From NCBI RefSeq assembly GCF_015142735.1, contig NZ_JACSPN010000031.1, positions 5,614 to 44,439 of the forward strand: a stretch of DNA of 38,826 nt, read 5' to 3'. The position numbers were made by a program, and so were the translations under genes. The notes beneath the pieces are model-generated. The model saw only the letters and a program-made list of their open reading frames with translations. It made no database searches and was not told the origin of the DNA. Positions 4,370 through 38,826 of the stretch are shown here, in pieces (position 1 is the stretch's first letter; each line of letters opens with the position of its first letter). This DNA is from Oerskovia douganii. GTDB taxonomy: Bacteria > Actinomycetota > Actinomycetes > Actinomycetales > Cellulomonadaceae.

Positions 4370-6073
4370 TCAGCGCGAGGCGCTGCCCCCGGTAGCGGTG
4401 CCCTCGGCGGGTCGCGTCGAGGTGCCGGTGGCCCCGCTCGGCGAGCCCGACGACGTCGCGCCGGCCCCGGCGAGGACGGACTCCTCGGCGTGGTCGCCCT
4501 CGTGCTCCTGCTCGATCTCGTCGGTCAGGTCCGGCAGGCCGGCCGCGAGGTCGCGCTCGAGGCGCTCGTCGAGACCGGACTTGGTCCCGAGCGGGACCTC
4601 CTTGAGGAACAGCACGCAGATCAGCCCGATGACCGCGAGGGGCACGGCCACGAGGAAGATGTCGGCGATGCCGTCGCCGTACGCGCGCTCCACGAGGTCG
4701 CGCATCGGGGCCGGGAGGGTGTTGACGTCGGGCACGGTGCCGCCCCTCGCGTCGGACGGGACGCCCATGGAGGCGAGTCCGGCCTGGATCGATGACGTGA
4801 CCTTGCTCGCGAGGACCGCCCCCAGGACCGAGACGCCGATCGTGCCGCCCAGGGTGCGGAAGAACGCGACGGTCGCGGTGCCCGCGCCCATCTCGGAGAT
4901 GTCGAGCGTGTTCTGGACCGCGAGCACGAGGTTCTGCATGAGCATGCCCATGCTCGCCCCGAGCGCGAACAGGTAGATGCTGATGAGCACGAAGCTCGTC
5001 TGGTAGTCGATGGTCGACAGCGCGAACAGCGAACCGACCAGGAGCACGCCGCCGGCGACCATGAACGCCTTGTAGCGACCGGTGCGCGTGATGAGCTGCC
5101 CGATCAGGGTCGACGCGACGAAGGTGCCGATGATCATGGGGATGGTCAGGAGGCCGGACTCGGTCGCGGTCCGTCCGCGAGCGACCTGCATGTACTGGCT
5201 GAGGAAGACGGCCGTGCCGAACATCGCGACGCCCACGGCGACGCTCGCGAGGACCGCGAGGACGAACGTGCGGTTCTTGAACAGGTGCAGGGGGATGATG
5301 GGCTCGGCCGCGCTCTTCTCGACCAGCACGGCCGCGACCAGCGCGAGCAGCGAGCCGATCACCATGACGGCGCTCTGCCACGACACCCACTCGAAGGTGT
5401 TGCCCGCGAACGTGACCCACAGCAGGAGGGTCGAGACGCCGACGCTGATGAGCAGCGCGCCCCAGTAGTCGATCTTCACGATGCGGCGGGGGATGGGCGG
5501 CAGGTGGAGCGTGCGCTGGAGGACGACGATCGCGGCGATCGCGAACGGCAGGCCGACGAAGAAGTTGAGACGCCAGCTCACGGTGTCCGTCAGGACGCCG
5601 CCGAGGAGGGGGCCGCCGATCTGGCTCACGGCCATGATCCCGCCCATGAGCCCCATGTACTTGCCGCGCTCGCGCGGCGAGATGATGTCGGAGATCAGGA
5701 CCATGGCGAGCGCCATGAGACCGCCGGCGCCGATGCCCTGGAGGGCGCGGAACGTGATGAGGGTGCCGACGTTCTGCGACAGGCCCGCGAGGGCCGACGC
5801 GAGGACCGAGACGACGAGCGCGAGCTGGATCAGGACCTTGCGGTTGGTCAGGTCGGCGAGCTTGCCCCAGATGGGGGTGGAGATGGTGGTCGTCAGGAGG
5901 GTCGCGGTGACGACCCACGTGAACGACGACTGCGACCCCTCGAGGTCGCTGATGATCTTGGGGAGCGAGCTCGAGACGACCGAGGTCGCGAGGACCGAGA
6001 CGAACATCCCGAGCAGGATGCCGGACAGTGACTCCAGCACTTCCTTGCGGGTCATGGTGGTGGTAGCGCTCAT
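4370..6073 (-). CDS. MFS drug exporter, DHA2 (EmrB/QacA) type, 14 TM
   Basis: A 567-residue proton-driven multidrug exporter of the 14-helix DHA2 family. Motif A-like GKLADLTNRK follows the second helix, and motif C-like GGPLLGGVL with SWRLNFFVGLPF is typical of EmrB/QacA. A Glu/Ser/Gly-rich cytoplasmic tail of about 60 residues ends the protein. The start at 6073 (MSATTTMTRKEVLESLSG) has a poor ribosome site; a second ATG at 6055 is possible. MarR genes lie on both sides on the same strand, so it is probably drug- or aromatic-inducible. Substrates are unknown. Confidence 0.93.
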   Translation of the reverse strand: MSATTTMTRKEVLESLSGILLGMFVSVLATSVVSSSLPKIISDLEGSQSSFTWVVTATLLTTTISTPIWGKLADLTNRKVLIQLALVVSVLASALAGLSQNVGTLITFRALQGIGAGGLMALAMVLISDIISPRERGKYMGLMGGIMAVSQIGGPLLGGVLTDTVSWRLNFFVGLPFAIAAIVVLQRTLHLPPIPRRIVKIDYWGALLISVGVSTLLLWVTFAGNTFEWVSWQSAVMVIGSLLALVAAVLVEKSAAEPIIPLHLFKNRTFVLAVLASVAVGVAMFGTAVFLSQYMQVARGRTATESGLLTIPMIIGTFVASTLIGQLITRTGRYKAFMVAGGVLLVGSLFALSTIDYQTSFVLISIYLFALGASMGMLMQNLVLAVQNTLDISEMGAGTATVAFFRTLGGTIGVSVLGAVLASKVTSSIQAGLASMGVPSDARGGTVPDVNTLPAPMRDLVERAYGDGIADIFLVAVPLAVIGLICVLFLKEVPLGTKSGLDERLERDLAAGLPDLTDEIEQEHEGDHAEESVLAGAGATSSGSPSGATGTSTRPAEGTATGGSASR

Positions 6074-7909: not shown

Positions 7910-7961
7910 CGTCGACCGTGCGTCAACCCGCGCGTCGACCGCCCGTCACCACAGCGTCACC
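7910..7961 (+). promoter_or_regulatory. PHO-box-like phased direct repeats upstream of the Pit operon
   Basis: Five direct repeats of CGTC(R)ACC start at 7910, 7921, 7933, 7944 and 7955, spaced 11, 12, 11 and 11 bp. Actinobacterial PhoP binds 11-bp direct repeats related to GTTCACC. The genes downstream are a PhoU-like protein and a phosphate transporter. A GACGAT -10 candidate at 7991-7996 would put the repeats directly upstream of -35, an activator position. Confidence 0.6.
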
Positions 7962-8060
7962 TCTCAACAGAACACCTGTGACATCCAGGTGACGATCGCC
8001 CCGAGCGGTCGTCACCTGCCTGTGAAACCCCATCAGCGTCCAGCCCTTCCGGAGCCTCCC

Positions 8061-8681
8061 GTGCGCTTGCGCCTCACCCCGCGCGATACCTCGTTCTTCG
8101 ACCTCCTCGCTGACTCCGCGCAGCACCTGGTCACCGGGGCAAACCTTCTGGCCGAGCTCCTCGGCGCCGACCGGCCCACCCGCAAGGAGCTCGCCAAGAA
8201 GCTGGCGGAGACCGAGCACCTGGCCGACGACGCGACCCACACGATCATGCGGCGCCTCAACCAGACGTTCGTCACGCCGTTCGACCGTGACGACATCTAC
8301 GGGCTCGCCTCCGCGCTCGACGACTGCATGGACTACATGGAAGAGGCCGCGGACCTCATCGTCCTGTACAAGATCGAGGAGCTGCCCGCCCGCGTCGGCG
8401 AGCAGGTCCAGGTCCTCCAGCGCGCCGCCGAGCTGACCGCCGAGGCCATGCCGCGCCTGCGCTCGCTCAACGACCTCGCCGAGTACTGGGTCGAGGTCAA
8501 CCGCCTCGAGAACCAGGCCGACAAGATCCACCGCAAGCTCCTCGCCGAGCTCTTCGACAACGTCGCCGACCCGATCCTCCTCATCAAGCTCAAGGAGGTC
8601 ATCGAGATCCTCGAGCAGGCCGCCGACGCGTTCGAGAAGGTCGCGAACATGGTCGAGACCATCGCGCTCAAGGAGTCCTGA
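8061..8681 (+). CDS. PhoU-like DUF47 protein paired with phosphate transporter
   Basis: A 206-residue all-helical cytosolic protein of the DUF47 (PhoU-divergent) family, which usually accompanies Pit-type phosphate transporters and probably modulates them. Family features include TPRDTSFFDLLADSAQHLVTGANLL at the start, then metal-site-like acidic helices with LADDATHTIMRRLNQTFVTPFDRDD and YMEEAADLIVLYKI. The C-terminus has LKEVIEILEQAADAFEKVAN. The GTG at 8061 follows GGAG by 6 nt; an in-frame ATG at 7872 would extend through the promoter region and is rejected. The stop is 5 nt before the transporter start, so the two are one operon. Confidence 0.93.
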   Translation: MRLRLTPRDTSFFDLLADSAQHLVTGANLLAELLGADRPTRKELAKKLAETEHLADDATHTIMRRLNQTFVTPFDRDDIYGLASALDDCMDYMEEAADLIVLYKIEELPARVGEQVQVLQRAAELTAEAMPRLRSLNDLAEYWVEVNRLENQADKIHRKLLAELFDNVADPILLIKLKEVIEILEQAADAFEKVANMVETIALKES

Positions 8682-32897: not shown

Positions 32898-33761
32898 CTA
32901 GCGGTCCGTGCCCCCGCCCGAGCGCCTGCGCGCCGCCCGCCACACGAGCCAGCCCACGACCGCGAGCACCACGGCGCCGCCCACGACCGCGGCGGTCCGC
33001 GGCGGCGAGAGCTGGGTGCGCAGCGTGACCGGCCGCGTGAACGTGAGCGTGCCCCAGCCGCTCTCTCCCGCGAGACGCCGCAGCGTCCGGTCCGGGTTGA
33101 CCGCGAAACCGTGCCCGACGGCCCCGAGCATGGGCGCGTCGGTGATCGAGTCCGAGTACGCGTAGGACGCGTCGAGGTCGTAGCCGTGGGTCTCGGCGAG
33201 CTCGCGGATCGCGACGGCCTTGTTCTCCCCGTACGCGTAGAAGTCGATGTCGCCCGTGTACCGGCCCTCGACGATCTCCATGCGCGTCGCGACGTAGTGG
33301 TCCGCGCCCAGCACGGCGGCGATGGGCTCGACGACCTCCGACCCCGAGGCCGAGACGATCACGACGTCGTGCCCCCGGTCGTGGTGGCTCACGATGAGCT
33401 CGACCGCCTCGGCGTACACGACCGGGTCGATGTACTCGTGCAGCGTCTCCTCGACGATCTGCGAGACGGTCCGCACGTCCCAGCCCGTCACCAGGGCGCT
33501 CAGGTGCGAGCGCATGCGCTCGGTCTGGTCCGCGTCGGCGCCGCCCACCATGTAGAGGAAGTGCGCGTACGCGCTGCGCAGCACGTCGCCGCGGCTGATG
33601 AGCCCGCCCGCGTAGAACGGCTTGGAGAACGCCGCGGTCGACGACGTCGCGATGATCGTCTTGTCCAGGTCGAAGAACGCCGCGACCTTCCGCGGGCGCC
33701 CCTCGCGGGCGCCGGTGGCGGGGCGGTGGCCGGGCTGCGGTGAGTCCTGGAGATGGGTCAC
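32898..33761 (-). CDS. HAD-IB family hydrolase with C-terminal membrane anchor
   Basis: A 287-residue HAD phosphatase of the SerB/HAD-IB type. Motif I FFDLDKTI has nucleophile D31 and acid D33. Motif II is IVSASGSEVV, the lysine motif III is GENKAVAIREL, and motif IV is YAYSDSITDAPML. A single hydrophobic helix near residues 255-272 (AAVVGGAVVLAVVGWLVW), with an Arg-rich end, suggests a C-terminal tail anchor with the enzyme in the cytosol. Relatives include phosphoserine phosphatase-like and lipid-phosphate enzymes; the substrate is unknown. GTG at 33761 lies 6 nt after a leaderless -10 box. The transposon boundary lies only 45 bp upstream. Confidence 0.9.
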   Translation of the reverse strand: MTHLQDSPQPGHRPATGAREGRPRKVAAFFDLDKTIIATSSTAAFSKPFYAGGLISRGDVLRSAYAHFLYMVGGADADQTERMRSHLSALVTGWDVRTVSQIVEETLHEYIDPVVYAEAVELIVSHHDRGHDVVIVSASGSEVVEPIAAVLGADHYVATRMEIVEGRYTGDIDFYAYGENKAVAIRELAETHGYDLDASYAYSDSITDAPMLGAVGHGFAVNPDRTLRRLAGESGWGTLTFTRPVTLRTQLSPPRTAAVVGGAVVLAVVGWLVWRAARRRSGGGTDR

Positions 33762-33805: not shown

Positions 33806-33833
33806 CGGCGGTCTCAACCCACCAACGCACCAC
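33806..33833 (+). repeat. Left terminal inverted repeat (28 bp)
   Basis: It begins CGGCGGTCTCAACCCACC and ends CGCACCAC, and is the exact reverse complement of 37202-37229. Confidence 0.9.
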
Positions 33834-33892
33834 CTGCTGCTGACGTTACCGGTGGGGGTGAGTTCGGTAGCAGATGTTCGCTCGAGTTGGCG

Positions 33893-34516
33893 CTAGATTC
33901 TCCGCTTGTACTGTCGGCAGACGTAGACCCTGCGGAAGCGTGCGCGGAGATCCGATTCGTGCTCGATCTCGGCATGGGCGAAGGCCCGGACGGGGGAACT
34001 CAGACCTGGCGGCGATGTGAATCCTTCGGCGGCTCCATCCCAGTCCTTGTAGACGTGCAGGTACCGGAACTCCTCGGCGAATCCGTGGCGCTGGTACCAG
34101 GCGTTCGCCGCGACGTCTTCGCGGGTCCAGGCATCGAGGCTCGTGACTCCCCGGTCGTCGAGCATTGGGAGAGCGCTCGTGAGCAGTGCACTGGCGATGC
34201 CTAGCTGGCCGTGGTCGGGGTGCGTCGCGATGGTGTCGATCGTCGCCGAAGCGCCATCGATCTCAACGTCGAGGATTCCGACGACTTCTTGATCGAGTAC
34301 CGCGACGAGGCACAGTGCGGGACGCTCGAAGCGCGTCCGCTGGGGTTTGACGTCGTCGTAGTACTGCGAGCCAAGGAACGAGAGCGCCCGGCACCGTACC
34401 CAGCTCGGTTCGTCAACATCGAGGTACAGCCGGATCGACGCAACAGGACGTGCCCGGCCGTGTTCAACCATCAAGGACTCGTCGAAGCCAGCAGCCCGCA
34501 GGAAGTGTGAGGTCAT
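33893..34516 (-). CDS. GNAT-family N-acetyltransferase (transposon cargo)
   Basis: A 207-residue single-domain GNAT protein. ASIRLYLDVDEPSWVRCRALSFLG at the start matches a common environmental acetyltransferase type. LVAVLDQEVVGILDVEIDG is a core strand pair, and TIATHPDHGQLGIASALL is the acetyl-CoA loop. AWTREDVAANAWYQRHGF is the usual C-terminal motif. The substrate is unknown; as transposon cargo it could act on an antibiotic or amine. ATG at 34516 is the first good start, with no clear ribosome site; an ATG at 34474 is an alternative. Less GC-biased codons than the backbone suggest transfer. Confidence 0.83.
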   Translation of the reverse strand: MTSHFLRAAGFDESLMVEHGRARPVASIRLYLDVDEPSWVRCRALSFLGSQYYDDVKPQRTRFERPALCLVAVLDQEVVGILDVEIDGASATIDTIATHPDHGQLGIASALLTSALPMLDDRGVTSLDAWTREDVAANAWYQRHGFAEEFRYLHVYKDWDGAAEGFTSPPGLSSPVRAFAHAEIEHESDLRARFRRVYVCRQYKRRI

Positions 34517-34592
34517 GCGGTCAGGGTGCCCGCATCGGGCCCGGTGGTCGAGACAATTGCCTGCCGCCTCGTAGGGGCTGCTACTGACGGTC

Positions 34593-35192
34593 TCAGGCCA
34601 TCGGCCCAGTGAGCGACGGGGCGACAGCGCGCTGGATGGTGCGATAGACGGTTGCGCGTGAGACGCCGAAGAGCTCAGCAAGCTCACCGCTGGTGTGCTC
34701 GCCGGCGGCGTGGACGGCCAGGAGGTGGCGTTGCTGGGCGGGCGTGAGCTTCGGCTTCTTCCCACGCAACCGGCCCTTGGCCTTGGCTATGGCCATACCT
34801 TCGCGGGTACGCGCGCGGATGAGGTCAGCCTCGAACTCGGCGACCATGCCCAGGACGTTGAACAGGAGCTTGCCGACGGGGTCGGTCGGGTCGTAGGCGT
34901 TGCCGCCCAGGGAGAGGACGATTCGGCGGCGGGTGAGCTCGTCGGCGATGTGCCTGGCGTCGGGCAGGGACCTGGCGAGGCGGTCGAGCTTGGTGACCAC
35001 GAGCATGTCCCCGGCCCGGCACGCGGCGAGGGCTTCACGCAGCCCTGGCCGGTCGCGGTTGGTGCCGGTCAGGCCGTGGTCGACGTAGATCCGCTCGGCC
35101 TCGACACCCAGCCGCTCGAGCCCTTCGCGCTGGGCGGTCAGGTCCTGCCCTTGAGTCGAGACCCGCGCATATCCGATCTTCATACCCGTCAT
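34593..35192 (-). CDS. Serine recombinase / Tn3-type resolvase
   Basis: A 199-residue small serine recombinase of the resolvase/invertase family. The catalytic serine is S12 in IGYARVSTQGQ. The family block YVDHGLTGTNRDRPGLREAL follows, then LVVTKLDRLARSLPDA with active-site arginines, the long E-helix (NVLGMVAEFEADLIRARTREG), and a C-terminal helix-turn-helix (TSGELAELFGVSRATVYRTIQRA). It probably resolves cointegrates or mediates inversion at the repeats just upstream (35222-35307). The start is uncertain among ATG 35192, ATG 35183 and a TTG at 35213. Confidence 0.92.
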   Translation of the reverse strand: MTGMKIGYARVSTQGQDLTAQREGLERLGVEAERIYVDHGLTGTNRDRPGLREALAACRAGDMLVVTKLDRLARSLPDARHIADELTRRRIVLSLGGNAYDPTDPVGKLLFNVLGMVAEFEADLIRARTREGMAIAKAKGRLRGKKPKLTPAQQRHLLAVHAAGEHTSGELAELFGVSRATVYRTIQRAVAPSLTGPMA

Positions 35193-35221
35193 GGCGCAAG
35201 TGTCGCAGTTCAACCCCCTTC

Positions 35222-35307
35222 ACCGGGCACATTTGCGGGCGGGTCTACCGGGCACCAAGAATTGGCGGAACCGCGTGCGTTGAGTTGGCGGGTCCCAGGT
35301 GCCCGGT
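35222..35307. promoter_or_regulatory. Candidate res (resolution) region upstream of the resolvase
   Basis: ACCGGGCAC occurs at 35222-35230 and 35247-35255, and its inverse GTGCCCGGT at 35299-35307. GGCGGGTC occurs at 35238-35245 and 35287-35294. The cluster occupies the gap between the divergent resolvase and methyltransferase genes, where resolvase binding sites are normally found. Confidence 0.45.
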
Positions 35308-35333
35308 GAGGGATCGGCTAACGGGCGCTGGCC

Positions 35334-35339
35334 TACTCT
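35334..35339 (+). promoter_or_regulatory. Leaderless -10 box TACTCT
   Basis: TACTCT ends 7 nt before the methyltransferase ATG at 35347. Confidence 0.5.
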
Positions 35340-35346
35340 GCCTCCT

Positions 35347-35988
35347 ATGAACGAACGACTGGCCCGGGCGCGAGCCGGGTACGACGCCGTCGCTGCGGAC
35401 TACGCAGCGCTGCTCCCCGACGCGTCCTTCGAAGCGGGCATGGACCTGGCGATGATTGACCAGTTCGTTGATCAGCTGCCAGCAGGGGCACGGGTGCTGG
35501 ATGCGGGGTGTGGCACAGGTCGGATGCTGGGGCACCTTCACGAGCGAGAGTCGTCCTTGCGCCTGGTCGGCATCGACCTCTCATCGGGGATGCTCGCGGA
35601 GGCAGCACGACCCACCGTCCCGACGGCGCTGGTGGCAGCCGATCTTGCAGCGCTCCCGTTCGACCAGGACGTCTTCGACGGAGTACTGGCGTGGTACTCG
35701 ATCATTCACGTCCCCTCTGACGCGCTGGCAGCGGCCGTCGCGGAGATGGCTCGGGTGCTCCGACCCGGTGGAACCCTCCTGTTCGGCTTCCATGCGGGCA
35801 CAGGGGAACGGACGATCACGAGCGCCTATGGGCAGCCAGTAGAGCTCACCTCGTTCTTGCACCTCACGACGGATGTCGCCGCGGCGGCGCGCGCTGCCGG
35901 GCTCGACGTGGATACCGTGCTGGACCGCGCACCGCGCCCTACTGAGAAGCACGATCAAGGGTTCGTGCTCGCACAGGCGCCGAAGTAG
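35347..35988 (+). CDS. Class I SAM-dependent methyltransferase (transposon cargo)
   Basis: A 213-residue methyltransferase with a complete Rossmann core. Motif I is VLDAGCGTGRMLGHL and the acidic end of strand 2 is LVGIDLSSGML. Motif II/III surrounds DVFDGVLAWYSIIHVP, then MARVLRPGGTLLFGFHAG. The C-terminal HDQGFVLAQAPK looks like a natural end. It belongs to the UbiE/MenG-like small-molecule type; the acceptor is unknown. ATG at 35347 follows a leaderless -10 box. Its 3' end overlaps the oppositely directed transposase reading frame by 50 bp. Confidence 0.88.
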   Translation: MNERLARARAGYDAVAADYAALLPDASFEAGMDLAMIDQFVDQLPAGARVLDAGCGTGRMLGHLHERESSLRLVGIDLSSGMLAEAARPTVPTALVAADLAALPFDQDVFDGVLAWYSIIHVPSDALAAAVAEMARVLRPGGTLLFGFHAGTGERTITSAYGQPVELTSFLHLTTDVAAAARAAGLDVDTVLDRAPRPTEKHDQGFVLAQAPK

Positions 35989-37168
35989 CCCACTCTGCTG
36001 CGAGCTGACGTGGAAGTCGAGAATCTGCAGCAGCCTGCCGAAACGTGTCCGCTGGCGTTGCCCAGTTGAGCACTCGCCGCGGGCGCTCGTTGAGGAGTCG
36101 TTGGATCCGCTCGAGCTCGACGTCGTCGGTCGCGGTGAGGTTGGACCGTCGCGGTAGGTACTGGCGCAGGAGACGGTTGGTGTTCTCGTTGGTGCCGCGC
36201 TGCCACGGGCTGCGGGGGTCGCAGAAGTAGACCGGTGCGTCGATCAGGGCGCTGAGGAAGGCGTGATCAGCCATCTCACGGCCACGATCCCACGTCAGGG
36301 ACTTGCACATCCCGGGCGGCACGTTGAACAGCGCGCGGGCGACCGCGGTGCTGACGTCCTTGGCCTTGATCCCGTCGGGCAGCGGGACGATCTTCAGGTA
36401 GCGGGTCGAGCGCTCCACGAGCGTGGCCACCGCTGAGGGGCGCTTGCCCATCACGAGGTCACCTTCCCAGTGGCCAGGCTCAAGCCGGTCGGCCACGGTA
36501 GCCGGGCGGTGGTGGATGGACACCATGTCACGCAGCTGCCCCCGCCCGTGAGACCGCTGGACCATCCGGGGCCGTCGCATCGAACGACCCGTTCGCAGCC
36601 GCTGGTAGGTCGCCTTCGGAATCGACCGCGACCTCGGCAGGTACACCGCGCGATAGATCGTCTCGTGCGAGACCCACATGCCCGGCTCGTCAGGATGCTC
36701 ACGGCGCAACCACGCCGCAATCTGCTGCGGAGACCAGTCCAGCTCAAGCCGCCCCAGCACCACGGTCCGCAACCGCTCGTCACCCGCCAGGCGCGGCACC
36801 CGCGGGCGCCGCGCCTCACTCTGGGCACGCCCGTCTGCCGTGGTCGCCCGGTAGGCGGCGCGGCCGCCGTTGCGCGCGATCTCCCGCGACACCGTCGAGG
36901 CCGGCCGGCCGAGCCCTGCGGCGATCGCCCGTCCAGACAGCCCGCTCGCGATCCCGCGCGAGATCTCCTCCCGCTCCCCAGGACTCAGGTGTCGCAGCGA
37001 ACGCCTCGGCAGCGAAGGCCGGACCCCGCCATGGCGCAGCAAATACCGGCGCACCTGCTGCTCCTGCAGGCCAGCCCGATCAGCGATCCGCCGCAGCGAT
37101 TCCCCCTCACCCCACGCCCCCCACACCACAGCCTGCTCCGGCGCCGACAACGACGTCCCAACACCCAT
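35939..37168 (-). CDS. IS30-family transposase
   Basis: A 409-residue DDE transposase. N-terminal helix-turn-helix regions (EQAVVWGAWGEGESLRRIADRAGL, and RSLRHLSPGEREEISRGIASG with ASTVSREIARNGG) are followed by the IS30 catalytic core. Its acids are D237 (HWEGDLVMG), D294 (LTWDRGREM) and E328 (RGTNENTNR). The D-33-E spacing is typical, so the enzyme looks intact. ATG at 37168 has GGAGG 5 nt upstream; an in-frame GTG lies at 37186. The last roughly 25 residues (LPRQLAAEW...) may be read from sequence beyond the original element, because the frame runs into the methyltransferase gene. Confidence 0.93.
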   Translation of the reverse strand: MGVGTSLSAPEQAVVWGAWGEGESLRRIADRAGLQEQQVRRYLLRHGGVRPSLPRRSLRHLSPGEREEISRGIASGLSGRAIAAGLGRPASTVSREIARNGGRAAYRATTADGRAQSEARRPRVPRLAGDERLRTVVLGRLELDWSPQQIAAWLRREHPDEPGMWVSHETIYRAVYLPRSRSIPKATYQRLRTGRSMRRPRMVQRSHGRGQLRDMVSIHHRPATVADRLEPGHWEGDLVMGKRPSAVATLVERSTRYLKIVPLPDGIKAKDVSTAVARALFNVPPGMCKSLTWDRGREMADHAFLSALIDAPVYFCDPRSPWQRGTNENTNRLLRQYLPRRSNLTATDDVELERIQRLLNERPRRVLNWATPADTFRQAAADSRLPRQLAAEWATSAPVRARTLDRASQ

Positions 37169-37201
37169 CCCGGCCTCCACAACCACGCATCATCCACCCT
37201 C

Positions 37202-37229
37202 GTGGTGCGTTGGTGGGTTGAGACCGCCG
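37202..37229 (-). repeat. Right terminal inverted repeat (28 bp)
   Basis: Exact reverse complement of 33806-33833, lying just upstream of the transposase start. Confidence 0.9.
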
Positions 37230-37299: not shown

Positions 37300-38130
37300 T
37301 CAGTAGATCGCGACGGCGTCGATGACGACTGCGGGGCCGGGAATGAAGGCCTGGACGTCGTCGGCCGGCAGGTCGATCGCAAGTGACTTCGACAGGCCGG
37401 CGACCATGTCATCCATGCTGGTCATGAGAGTGCGCTTCATCAGCCACTCCCAGCCGTGCAACAGCCACTTCTCGGTATTGAGGAAGTCGTCCTCCTCGAT
37501 GAGTGATTCGACGGTGCCGACGAGTCCGATCTCTCCTTCGACCTGATCGGCCGCGGCGTCATCGACGAAGTGTCCTGGTCGCACGCTCACCAGAACCCGC
37601 GGTTCGAGGCCACAGCCTTCAAGCTCGAACAGAGTCGGCACGGGCACCAACTCGTTGCCCAGGTAGACCGCCTTGAGCGCTTCCTCCACACCGGTGGGCA
37701 TCTGACCAGAGGTCAGGTCTTCTAGCGACGTAGCAGATGAGCGGATCGCCTGCAGCGCGACGTAGAGCAGCTTGCCTGCCACCGAAGCTGTAGTCAGGTG
37801 CGCTGCGCCTTCCAGGACCAGGGCGGTGTCCTTGTGCAGCGCGAGACCGGCGCTCGGTGCTTGGACGTGTCCGCCGTGACTGAGCTGGTCAAGAACCTTG
37901 CTCACTGCGGCCTTCTGATTCGGAGCCAGGGTGTAGCTGGTCTGAACCTCGATCTCCGTTCCGCGCTCACCACCTAGTTCGCTTCCTTTGAACCCGAGCT
38001 TCCCGCCCCCCTTGCGGTTCTTCATCGTGCGTTCGGTGATCTCCTGCTGTAGCGGTACACCAACATCGGCATACTCGGCCAGCGCGAAGAGAGTCTCAAC
38101 ATCCAGGAACTTCGGCGTACGCAGAGGCAT
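37300..38130 (-). CDS. DUF6414-like protein of unknown function
   Basis: A 276-residue soluble protein. The beginning PKFLDVETLFALAEYADV, then a basic Gly-rich stretch (NRKGGGKLGFKGSE) leading into GGERGTEIEVQTSYTLAP, recalls DUF6414 proteins. These often sit beside mobile or defence genes and have no proven function; the match is from memory and moderate. The middle holds KDTALVLEGAAHLTTASVAGKLLYVALQAI. ATG at 38130 is preceded by CACTAT 6 nt upstream, a leaderless-type box; an in-frame GTG lies at 38148. It is divergent from the AlbA_2 gene with a shared 110-bp promoter region. Base composition is clearly less GC-rich than the backbone. Confidence 0.72.
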   Translation of the reverse strand: MPLRTPKFLDVETLFALAEYADVGVPLQQEITERTMKNRKGGGKLGFKGSELGGERGTEIEVQTSYTLAPNQKAAVSKVLDQLSHGGHVQAPSAGLALHKDTALVLEGAAHLTTASVAGKLLYVALQAIRSSATSLEDLTSGQMPTGVEEALKAVYLGNELVPVPTLFELEGCGLEPRVLVSVRPGHFVDDAAADQVEGEIGLVGTVESLIEEDDFLNTEKWLLHGWEWLMKRTLMTSMDDMVAGLSKSLAIDLPADDVQAFIPGPAVVIDAVAIY

Positions 38131-38227
38131 GTGTCGATAGTGCCGCACCCCACCGACATCCAGGTCCTGCCGATCGGGCGAAGGTCCCCCGACGCGACGT
38201 CGACCTGGGGCAGTTGATCTGAGGCCC

Positions 38228-38240: not shown

Positions 38241-38810
38241 ATGGCGATCACCTGGAGCAGGCTTCACGAACGTCTCGGAGTCCAAGTTGCACGGCCGCTC
38301 AGCGTCGCCGACATTGTCCAAGCCATAGCGCTCGATCTTGACGAGGACGAAGCGCTCGACTTCAAGGCACAGTTGCGAAGCGATGAAGCGGCGAAGGTCG
38401 AGCTCGCCAAGGATGTCGCGGCCATGGCGAATAGTGGTGGTGGCCTCATAGTCGTCGGCGTCGGTGAGGAAGGTGAAGAGAAACATCTCGTCGCCGCGCC
38501 GTACCAGATCCCTGCCGAGCCCGAGCAGGCGATTCACCAGCTCCTGGCGTCGCGCGTGCGCCCGCTCGTCCGGCCGGTCGTCGAGGCGATCCGAGGCGAC
38601 GGTGAGACGAGCGGCTACTTGCTCATCCAGGTCCCTGACTCGCCTGCAGCTCCGCACTTCTACGAACACAACCCCGACCAGAGGACCCCGCCCGGTGCGC
38701 CCTTCCGCCACGGGTCCGGCACGCTGATGATGCGTGAGTACGACCTAGATGTACCCGGCCGTGAGGTTGGTGCCAGTTCCGGTTGTCGAAGGGAGGACCT
38801 CCGGGCTTAG
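38241..38810 (+). CDS. AlbA_2 / Schlafen-type putative ATP- or DNA-binding protein, probably C-terminally truncated
   Basis: A 189-residue protein whose residues about 30-165 resemble the AlbA_2 (divergent AAA_4, Schlafen core) domain. Signs are EDEALDFKAQLRSD, KDVAAMANSGGGLIVVGVGE, then YLLIQVPDSPAAPHFYEH and a closing GTLMMREYDL. In the family such domains occur in nucleic-acid-linked regulators and in some phage-defence proteins, usually with a further C-terminal domain. Here the similarity stops at about 38745, and the last 20 residues look unrelated. No other frame continues the domain, so truncation or a junction is likely. The start follows a leaderless box. Confidence 0.75.
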   Translation: MAITWSRLHERLGVQVARPLSVADIVQAIALDLDEDEALDFKAQLRSDEAAKVELAKDVAAMANSGGGLIVVGVGEEGEEKHLVAAPYQIPAEPEQAIHQLLASRVRPLVRPVVEAIRGDGETSGYLLIQVPDSPAAPHFYEHNPDQRTPPGAPFRHGSGTLMMREYDLDVPGREVGASSGCRREDLRA

Positions 38811-38826
38811 TGGAGATGTCGAAGTC

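Follow-up and report, generated by a model that had tools for sequence, protein, structure and literature searches.

Insertion sequences (ISs) of the IS30 family are usually seen as transposase-only elements, and they work through circles. Transposons of the Tn552/Tn5053 group combine an rve-type transposase and an ATP-binding partner protein with a resolvase and cargo. For IS30, palindromic hot spots, 2-bp target duplications, dimers and cointegrates have been described, together with insertion adjacent to its own ends and deletions that start at an end (passages of PMC9333248). Tn3 family transposons are assembled from modules, namely a transposase, the site res, the resolvase TnpR and passenger genes (passages of PMC6305408 and PMC4133298), and in 2014 they were believed to derive from IS elements that gained an additional module (a passage of PMC4133298). 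A transporter IS (tIS) is an IS derivative with passenger genes (a passage of PMC9330008); ISArsp14, an ISNCY element like ISBli29, contains a transposase, a resolvase, cargo and also an ATP-binding protein (a passage of PMC6305408); and TIME-RES is a Tn3-derived mini-element with a resolvase and res (a passage of PMC4133298). Here we analyse a 38,826-nt stretch of Oerskovia douganii DNA (the window; positions 5614-44439 of contig C24, in an assembly of 4.25 Mb in 69 contigs), in which a unit bounded by IS30-type inverted repeats (IRs) holds an IS30-family transposase together with a serine resolvase and cargo.

The element is IS30 by its transposase, ends and target and Tn3-like by its plan, and it is not a member of the Tn3 family. 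It shares with the IS30 family the transposase model, the ends, the palindromic target and, in relatives, the 2-bp duplication, but its compact relatives are transposase-only elements of 1.2-1.3 kb, which fit the usual view of IS30, whereas units of the present type are 3-6 kb long and contain a resolvase, a res-like site and cargo. With the Tn3 family it shares the modular plan, the serine resolvase with an upstream res-like region and the passengers in the core; it differs in the 415-aa IS30 rve-type transposase, in the ends of ~28 bp and in duplications of 2 bp (seen in relatives) rather than 5 bp. Passengers lie between the IS's own ends as in a tIS, but the window unit adds a resolution module, and no IS30 member with one is named in the part of PMC9330008 cited here. 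The combination of a transposase with a resolvase and cargo recalls ISArsp14 and ISBli29, although ISArsp14 has the ATP-binding protein and is filed under another transposase family. In contrast to Tn5053/Tn552, the Pfam tables show no match to an ATPase model for any of the four proteins encoded in the window unit. TIME-RES likewise has a portable resolvase-res module between terminal repeats, but its ends are of Tn3 type and it is non-autonomous, without a transposase of its own. In the openly licensed literature, a scope that leaves ISfinder and TnCentral outside, we recognised no description of an IS30-family unit that has a resolvase of its own. If a single-copy IS30 transposon has acquired a resolution module, it would illustrate the step from a simple IS to a cargo-bearing unit transposon, and this step is open to study because compact and resolvase-bearing forms coexist in one subfamily.

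The window unit and its inverted repeats

The unit measures 3424 bp from end to end, and its two terminal repeats (Table 1) are complementary at 28 of 28 positions with a spacing of 3,368 nt. A search of the window for the 24-bp core of the end, with up to three mismatches allowed, finds these two places and no others, and 100 shuffles gave no occurrence. The perfect 28-bp ends had been pointed out in an earlier reading of this DNA from its letters alone (the sequence-only reading), which also placed four genes between them, for an IS30 transposase (intact), a methyltransferase, a serine resolvase and an acetyltransferase; profile matches confirm all four. The transposase matches the IS30 family model NF033563 (E 3.5e-79; 266 bits, cutoff 80), and its Pfam matches are restricted to HTH-type, rve and sigma-70 region 4 models, with no Tn3-type transposase among them. 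Residues D243, D300 and E334, which we take to be the catalytic DDE residues, are invariant across an alignment of eight transposase sequences; in the IS30 DDE motif ~33 residues separate the second D from the E. The resolvase open reading frame (ORF; 34593-35213, minus strand) matches PF00239 (E 3e-40) and HTH_7, the S-adenosylmethionine (SAM) methyltransferase ORF (35299-35988, plus strand) matches PF13649 (E 2e-22), and the GNAT acetyltransferase ORF (33893-34765, minus strand) matches PF00583 (E 7e-11). The methyltransferase and transposase genes overlap by 50 bp, tail to tail. As the sequence-only reading had observed, there is no second IS30 end at the transposase stop, since the best 25-mer match in 35700-36100 is 14/25, and chance matches to the 25-bp end elsewhere in the unit reach 16/25.

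Table 1 Features of the window unit and its left flank (window coordinates)
Feature	Position	Strand	Remarks
HAD-family phosphatase gene (flank)	32898..33761	-	kept in 7/7 genus genomes including this one; indicates where the original insertion took place
Distal inverted repeat (left end)	33806..33833	+	core GGCGGTCTCAACC from 33807; outer flank CC
Slot-2 cargo, GNAT acetyltransferase, ~207 aa	33893..34516	-	ATG at 34516 picked by eye; listed ORF to 34765
Small serine resolvase, 199 aa	34593..35192	-	ATG at 35192 picked by eye; Y.R.S and KLDRLARS motifs
res-like site	35195..35328		134 bp, upstream of resolvase
Possible res site III	~35195-35219		a guess
res site II	~35220-35253		34 bp
res site I	~35299-35328		central AT 35313-35314
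Slot-1 cargo, class I SAM methyltransferase, 213 aa	35347..35988	+	ATG at 35347 picked by eye
IS30-family transposase, 415 aa, intact	35939..37186	-	NF033563
Proximal inverted repeat (right end)	37202..37229	-	outer flank GT then CGTTTTTG, half-site of a palindromic target

Units of the same architecture in other genomes

A family-wide DNA search of 221 genomes gave matches in 170, many of them only short IS30 pieces. We scored 40 loci for ends, transposase and resolvase: 20 regions picked by strength or interest among the matches listed, 16 further regions likewise chosen by hand, a locus of Actinomyces polynesiensis (L071), the window, and two regions of the same O. douganii assembly, namely a second copy on contig C67 (L009) and a region of contig C11 (L010). 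Because the loci were chosen and not exhaustive, the unit counts given here are not frequencies. L071 is the sole locus analysed from the best 80 of 582 confirmed stretches of a contig scan, among which the other 79 stand at 42-50% identity and L071 at 84%. An order-wide protein search found close transposases (E <= 1e-90) in 11 of 396 genomes, and the end pattern is present in 16 of 396; the subfamily is therefore sparse. Two phage records gave partial matches, and the 45-bp end had no match among plasmids.

Six IR-bounded units hold a transposase and a co-oriented distal resolvase: the window unit, L071 (3068 bp), L052 (5756 bp), L053 (3890 bp), L054 (3732 bp) and L055 (4185 bp). The five other genomes share one layout, in which an end is followed by the transposase, by the resolvase in the same direction and by the far end, and the cargo differs from unit to unit. 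The cargo includes a mercury reductase in L055 (MerA; TIGR02053, above cutoff) and a VanZ-like protein in L054; the ORFs in L052, L053 and L071 have no family match, in a scan that covered ten chosen cargo ORFs. Transposase and resolvase frames are both unbroken in three of the six units (window, L054 and L055). Two related loci, L057 (2.9 kb, with a gene for an STM3941-like protein) and L182 (1.7 kb), contain extra DNA and no resolvase. In addition, the compact relatives L056, L187, L190 and L191 (~1.2-1.3 kb) hold the transposase only and have ends in common with the units; further compact copies are L254, whose left end is weak, and L260.

The C67 copy is 91% identical to the window at the DNA level in its IS30 part and 89% in its resolvase part. 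Two ORFs without a family match replace the methyltransferase, and an AAA_33 kinase gene lies beyond the resolvase. Only one end was found on this contig (24-bp core, up to three mismatches), and no other match of 18 of 25 to the end was found in the regions L009, L237 and L238, which cover 40.7 kb of the 175.7-kb contig. As a separate observation, an ORF of ~90 aa follows the resolvase in both L071 (11684-11950) and L052 (4627-4905), with no Pfam or NCBIfam match.

Target sites and duplications

The dinucleotides flanking the two ends match in 8 of 13 paired relatives (L071, L052, L053, L054, L056, L182, L191 and L254); when right flanks were shuffled, the mean was 2.3 matches, and 31 of 100,000 shuffles reached eight. 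Four of the five relatives with a resolvase (L071, L052, L053 and L054) have identical outermost 2-bp flanks, and these units have therefore probably moved whole. The passengers inside the IS ends would have moved together with them; the window copy itself has no matching flanks. Pooled over both sides, 26 outer half-sites from the 13 relatives read C-N-N-A-A-A-C-G, CNNAAACG, which the right flank of the window unit fits and the left flank does not. The duplications in relatives fit 2 bp, and none longer, such as the 5-bp duplication of the Tn3 kind, was found in the flanks inspected.

The sequence-only reading had suggested GTC as a target duplication, and this had to be abandoned: GTC requires unequal end boundaries, while the boundary GGCGG fits the relatives. 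A CG duplication within an AAACG/CGTTT target was also dropped, as 2-bp duplications at the GGCGG boundary fit better.

Two flanking hairpins were noticed on the way. The L054 unit lies in the loop of a long terminator-like hairpin (arms at L054:4150-4210 and 7942-8000, by eye). The left flank of L052 (L052:1900-1947) is a near-perfect hairpin ending in AAACG, and other family genomes contain matches to it on both strands; the matching stretches in G126 and G119 have no IS30 end or transposase.

A conserved res-like site and breakpoints at site I

An alignment of 11 loci reveals a conserved block upstream of the resolvase, which contains a site I and a 34-bp site II. Nine of these loci are elements or fragments with IS30 ends; in L056 the resolvase lies outside the compact IS, and L069 is without an end. 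The names of sites I, II and III presume an analogy with Tn3. The predicted centre of site I (AA in L069) is located 121-130 bp before the assumed resolvase start in all 11 loci. The Y.R.S and KLDRLxRS motifs are present in 10 of 10 loci tested, and in eight of the ten the resolvase frame runs uninterrupted through the aligned length, the exceptions being L052 with a stop and L071 with a frameshift. A serine resolvase (PF00239 and HTH_7) with an upstream res site (the site I/II block), which is a Tn3-like trait, can thus be recognised from the sequence only; the conserved block lends support to the pairing of IS30 with a Tn3-like function that the sequence-only reading had put forward.

Comparison of L071 with L059, a locus in another genome of the family, points to a role of site I in rearrangement. 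The two loci share a module of 1,060 bp at 99.15% identity. It begins 1 bp ahead of the A of the AT, takes in the resolvase and a small ORF and ends just outside the terminal repeat; upstream of it BLAST gave no match between them. An aldolase-like gene next to L071 reaches only 79% identity in the L059 genome, so the sharing of the module between these distant genomes is recent. A near-identical module that starts at the predicted crossover dinucleotide suggests resolvase-mediated cargo exchange, and the break in this one 99% pair has the form expected of a trace of site-specific recombination. Similarly, the window and the C67 copy share 89% identity up to 35315, next to the central AT, after which their slot-1 contents differ. 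Over all locus pairs, a clear similarity step was seen in 31 of 55; the breakpoints lie between -48 and 0, and 12 of the 31 are at -1 or 0. Slot 1 extends between transposase residue ~387 and site I, and slot 2 between resolvase residue ~190-195 and the distal end. Kholodii reportedly described a shuffle function of resolvases. Cargo turnover by way of site I, where homology breaks off sharply, is a route that can be tested directly.

A TACTCT box (35334-35339) lies just 5' of the methyltransferase ATG, and by eye the same box also precedes the first ORF in slot 1 of the C67 copy; it may be a promoter, placed where res ends, for the slot-1 cargo.

Proposed mechanism and alternative explanations

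We hold it to be probable that these units represent an IS30-family unit transposon with the plan of the Tn3 family, in which the resolvase resolves dimers or cointegrates and cargo is exchanged at res. Such a transposon would be arranged as IR, transposase, cargo slot 1, res, resolvase, cargo slot 2 and IR. The transposase would act on both outer ends and insert the unit at the centre of the palindrome CNNAAACG-NN-CGTTTNNG, with 2 bp duplicated, as the flanks of the relatives indicate. The resolvase would most likely recombine res copies in direct repeat and so separate dimers or cointegrates of the larger, cargo-bearing unit. Recombination at res between elements could join the transposase and cargo of one to the resolvase half of another, as the breakpoints suggest; cargo exchange would follow, because the site-I crossover adjoins slot 1.

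Resolution, movement of the whole unit and cargo swapping are each deduced here from sequence. Several observations weigh against the proposed transposon. One or both key genes are broken in three of the six units: the resolvase of L052 has a stop, the transposase of L053 is broken, and in L071 both are broken, the resolvase by a frameshift. L057 holds cargo with no resolvase, and no second copy of the exact gene set of the window unit was found in its own genome or among the family matches listed. The flanking dinucleotides differ in five of the 13 relatives (L055, L057, L187, L190 and L260), including the MerA unit L055 (AT versus AC), and those of the window pair are likewise unmatched, the left one being CC and the right one GT, with the end taken at GGCGG as in relatives. 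Between distant loci, the step at site I could be due to functional conservation only. Moreover, related resolvases on four of four actinobacterial plasmids viewed have no annotated transposase within 4.5 kb, in a gene table that is incomplete.

The unmatched window flanks fit the alternative that the window unit is no transposon of its own, and that the ends of two different IS30 insertions in an island were joined by a deletion, so that only the larger island or the compact IS moves. The locus itself provides further evidence of this kind. In the related genomes G168 and G171 the sequence after the HAD-family gene is IS30-free and passes from ...atgtCC straight into cggtt...; the site in G170 is also IS30-free, with one base changed (CT for CC), and the next gene starts ATGATCACGCTC in all three. 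In the O. douganii genome the left half-site ends at the left IR of the window unit (CC), while the right half and the same gene start follow an IR on contig C11 (CC; IS30 end at 8381-8408, outer edge C11:8408). Since both flanks are CC and relatives have an empty site, 33806 pairs with C11:8408, and the original insertion was probably bounded by these two positions; C24 and C11 would be joined here, judging from the relatives. This is the only empty site relied on, because a family-wide search with the joined flanks of six relatives yielded crossings that were all partial (G126 and G119, for instance, pass the L052 joint by 7 bp, and G038 passes the L055 joint by 10 bp).

Contig C11 also contains two lone ends (4882-4909 and 215649-215676). 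Its end at 8381-8408 adjoins an ORF that starts as residues 1-86 of the IS30 transposase and continues as unrelated sequence; next to this ORF, the region L010:5233-8408 encodes what by eye looks like a P-type ATPase for metal transport and an ArsR-like regulator. For the DNA to the right of the window unit, the genus offers only short matches. The 3.4-kb unit appears to sit in a larger island of nested or rearranged IS30 elements between the HAD-family gene and a second conserved gene, an island which may have been reshaped by insertion beside an existing end and then deletion. The documented insertion of IS30 near its own ends would explain such local rearrangement. However, five other genomes have the same architecture, four of them with matching duplications, and the ends of the window unit are identical over 28 bp and its transposase is intact, so the pair of ends should be usable whatever its history. 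We regard two joined insertions as a rather doubtful account of the unit as such. The proposal of the sequence-only reading, that an IS30 transposase moves a resolvase and enzymes as one unit, stands for the general kind of element and falls for this copy as one clean insertion; the objection raised with it, that 33806 might be the end of another element, is partly right, for the locus and not for the kind of element.

In another relative, G172 (L202), the sequence after the HAD-family gene is IS30-free and departs from that of the other relatives ~10 bases past the target; the spot may be a recurrent rearrangement site.

Alternatively, the resolvase could be a passenger, a plasmid-type multimer resolvase caught by chance between IS30 ends and neither required nor used by the transposase. 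The plasmid resolvases that lie apart from any annotated transposase show that the gene can travel without IS30; the cargo of L057, the compact relatives without a resolvase and the broken resolvase in two of the six units (L052 and L071) also fit a passenger. The transposase tree (best high-scoring segment pair per locus, L053 being entered with only part of its transposase) tells against it: resolvase-bearing forms fall into three clades (the window clade, L054 and L055), interspersed with forms that are compact or lack a resolvase, and in all three the same type of resolvase follows the transposase with the same orientation. A Curtobacterium plasmid has a 70%-identical resolvase beside a 40%-identical transposase, the genes being 35 bp apart, although no convincing terminal repeats were found around the pair. 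The nearly fixed distance from site I to the gene in all 11 loci, and the resolvase frame kept open in most loci tested, argue in the same direction, and we consider a passenger resolvase improbable.

That IS30-type elements are drawn to palindromic res sites, insert beside them and then lose the inner end is the least probable account, to which we give little credit: the res region of L055 does overlap the 3' end of the transposase, the Curtobacterium genes are close together, and in Rhodococcus pR8C1 the distance between an IS30 gene and the start of a recombinase is ~170 bp, but the observed targets are CNNAAACG-NN-CGTTTNNG palindromes that are not res-like, and the resolvase lies inside the outer ends in all six units, not beyond them.

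Evolution of resolvase-bearing units

The distribution over the transposase tree fits repeated uptake of a plasmid-type resolution module, or its loss from a common ancestor. We tentatively suggest, at somewhat less than even chances, that IS30-family ISs became Tn3-like unit transposons more than once through uptake of a resolvase and res, with site I as a port for cargo exchange. If so, resolvase could join the transposase half of one element to the resolvase half of another at the crossover dinucleotide, giving open-ended turnover of cargo without homologous recombination.

DNA to the right of the window unit

A gene at 37300-38148, right of the unit, is weakly DUF6414-like (below the Pfam cutoff), and a gene at 38241-38810 encodes a Schlafen/AlbA_2-domain protein. 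The last 82 bp of the window (38745-38826), which reach the end of contig C24, recur at several places in the same genome and in four of the six other genomes of the genus; this repeat is probably an IS end that broke the assembly.

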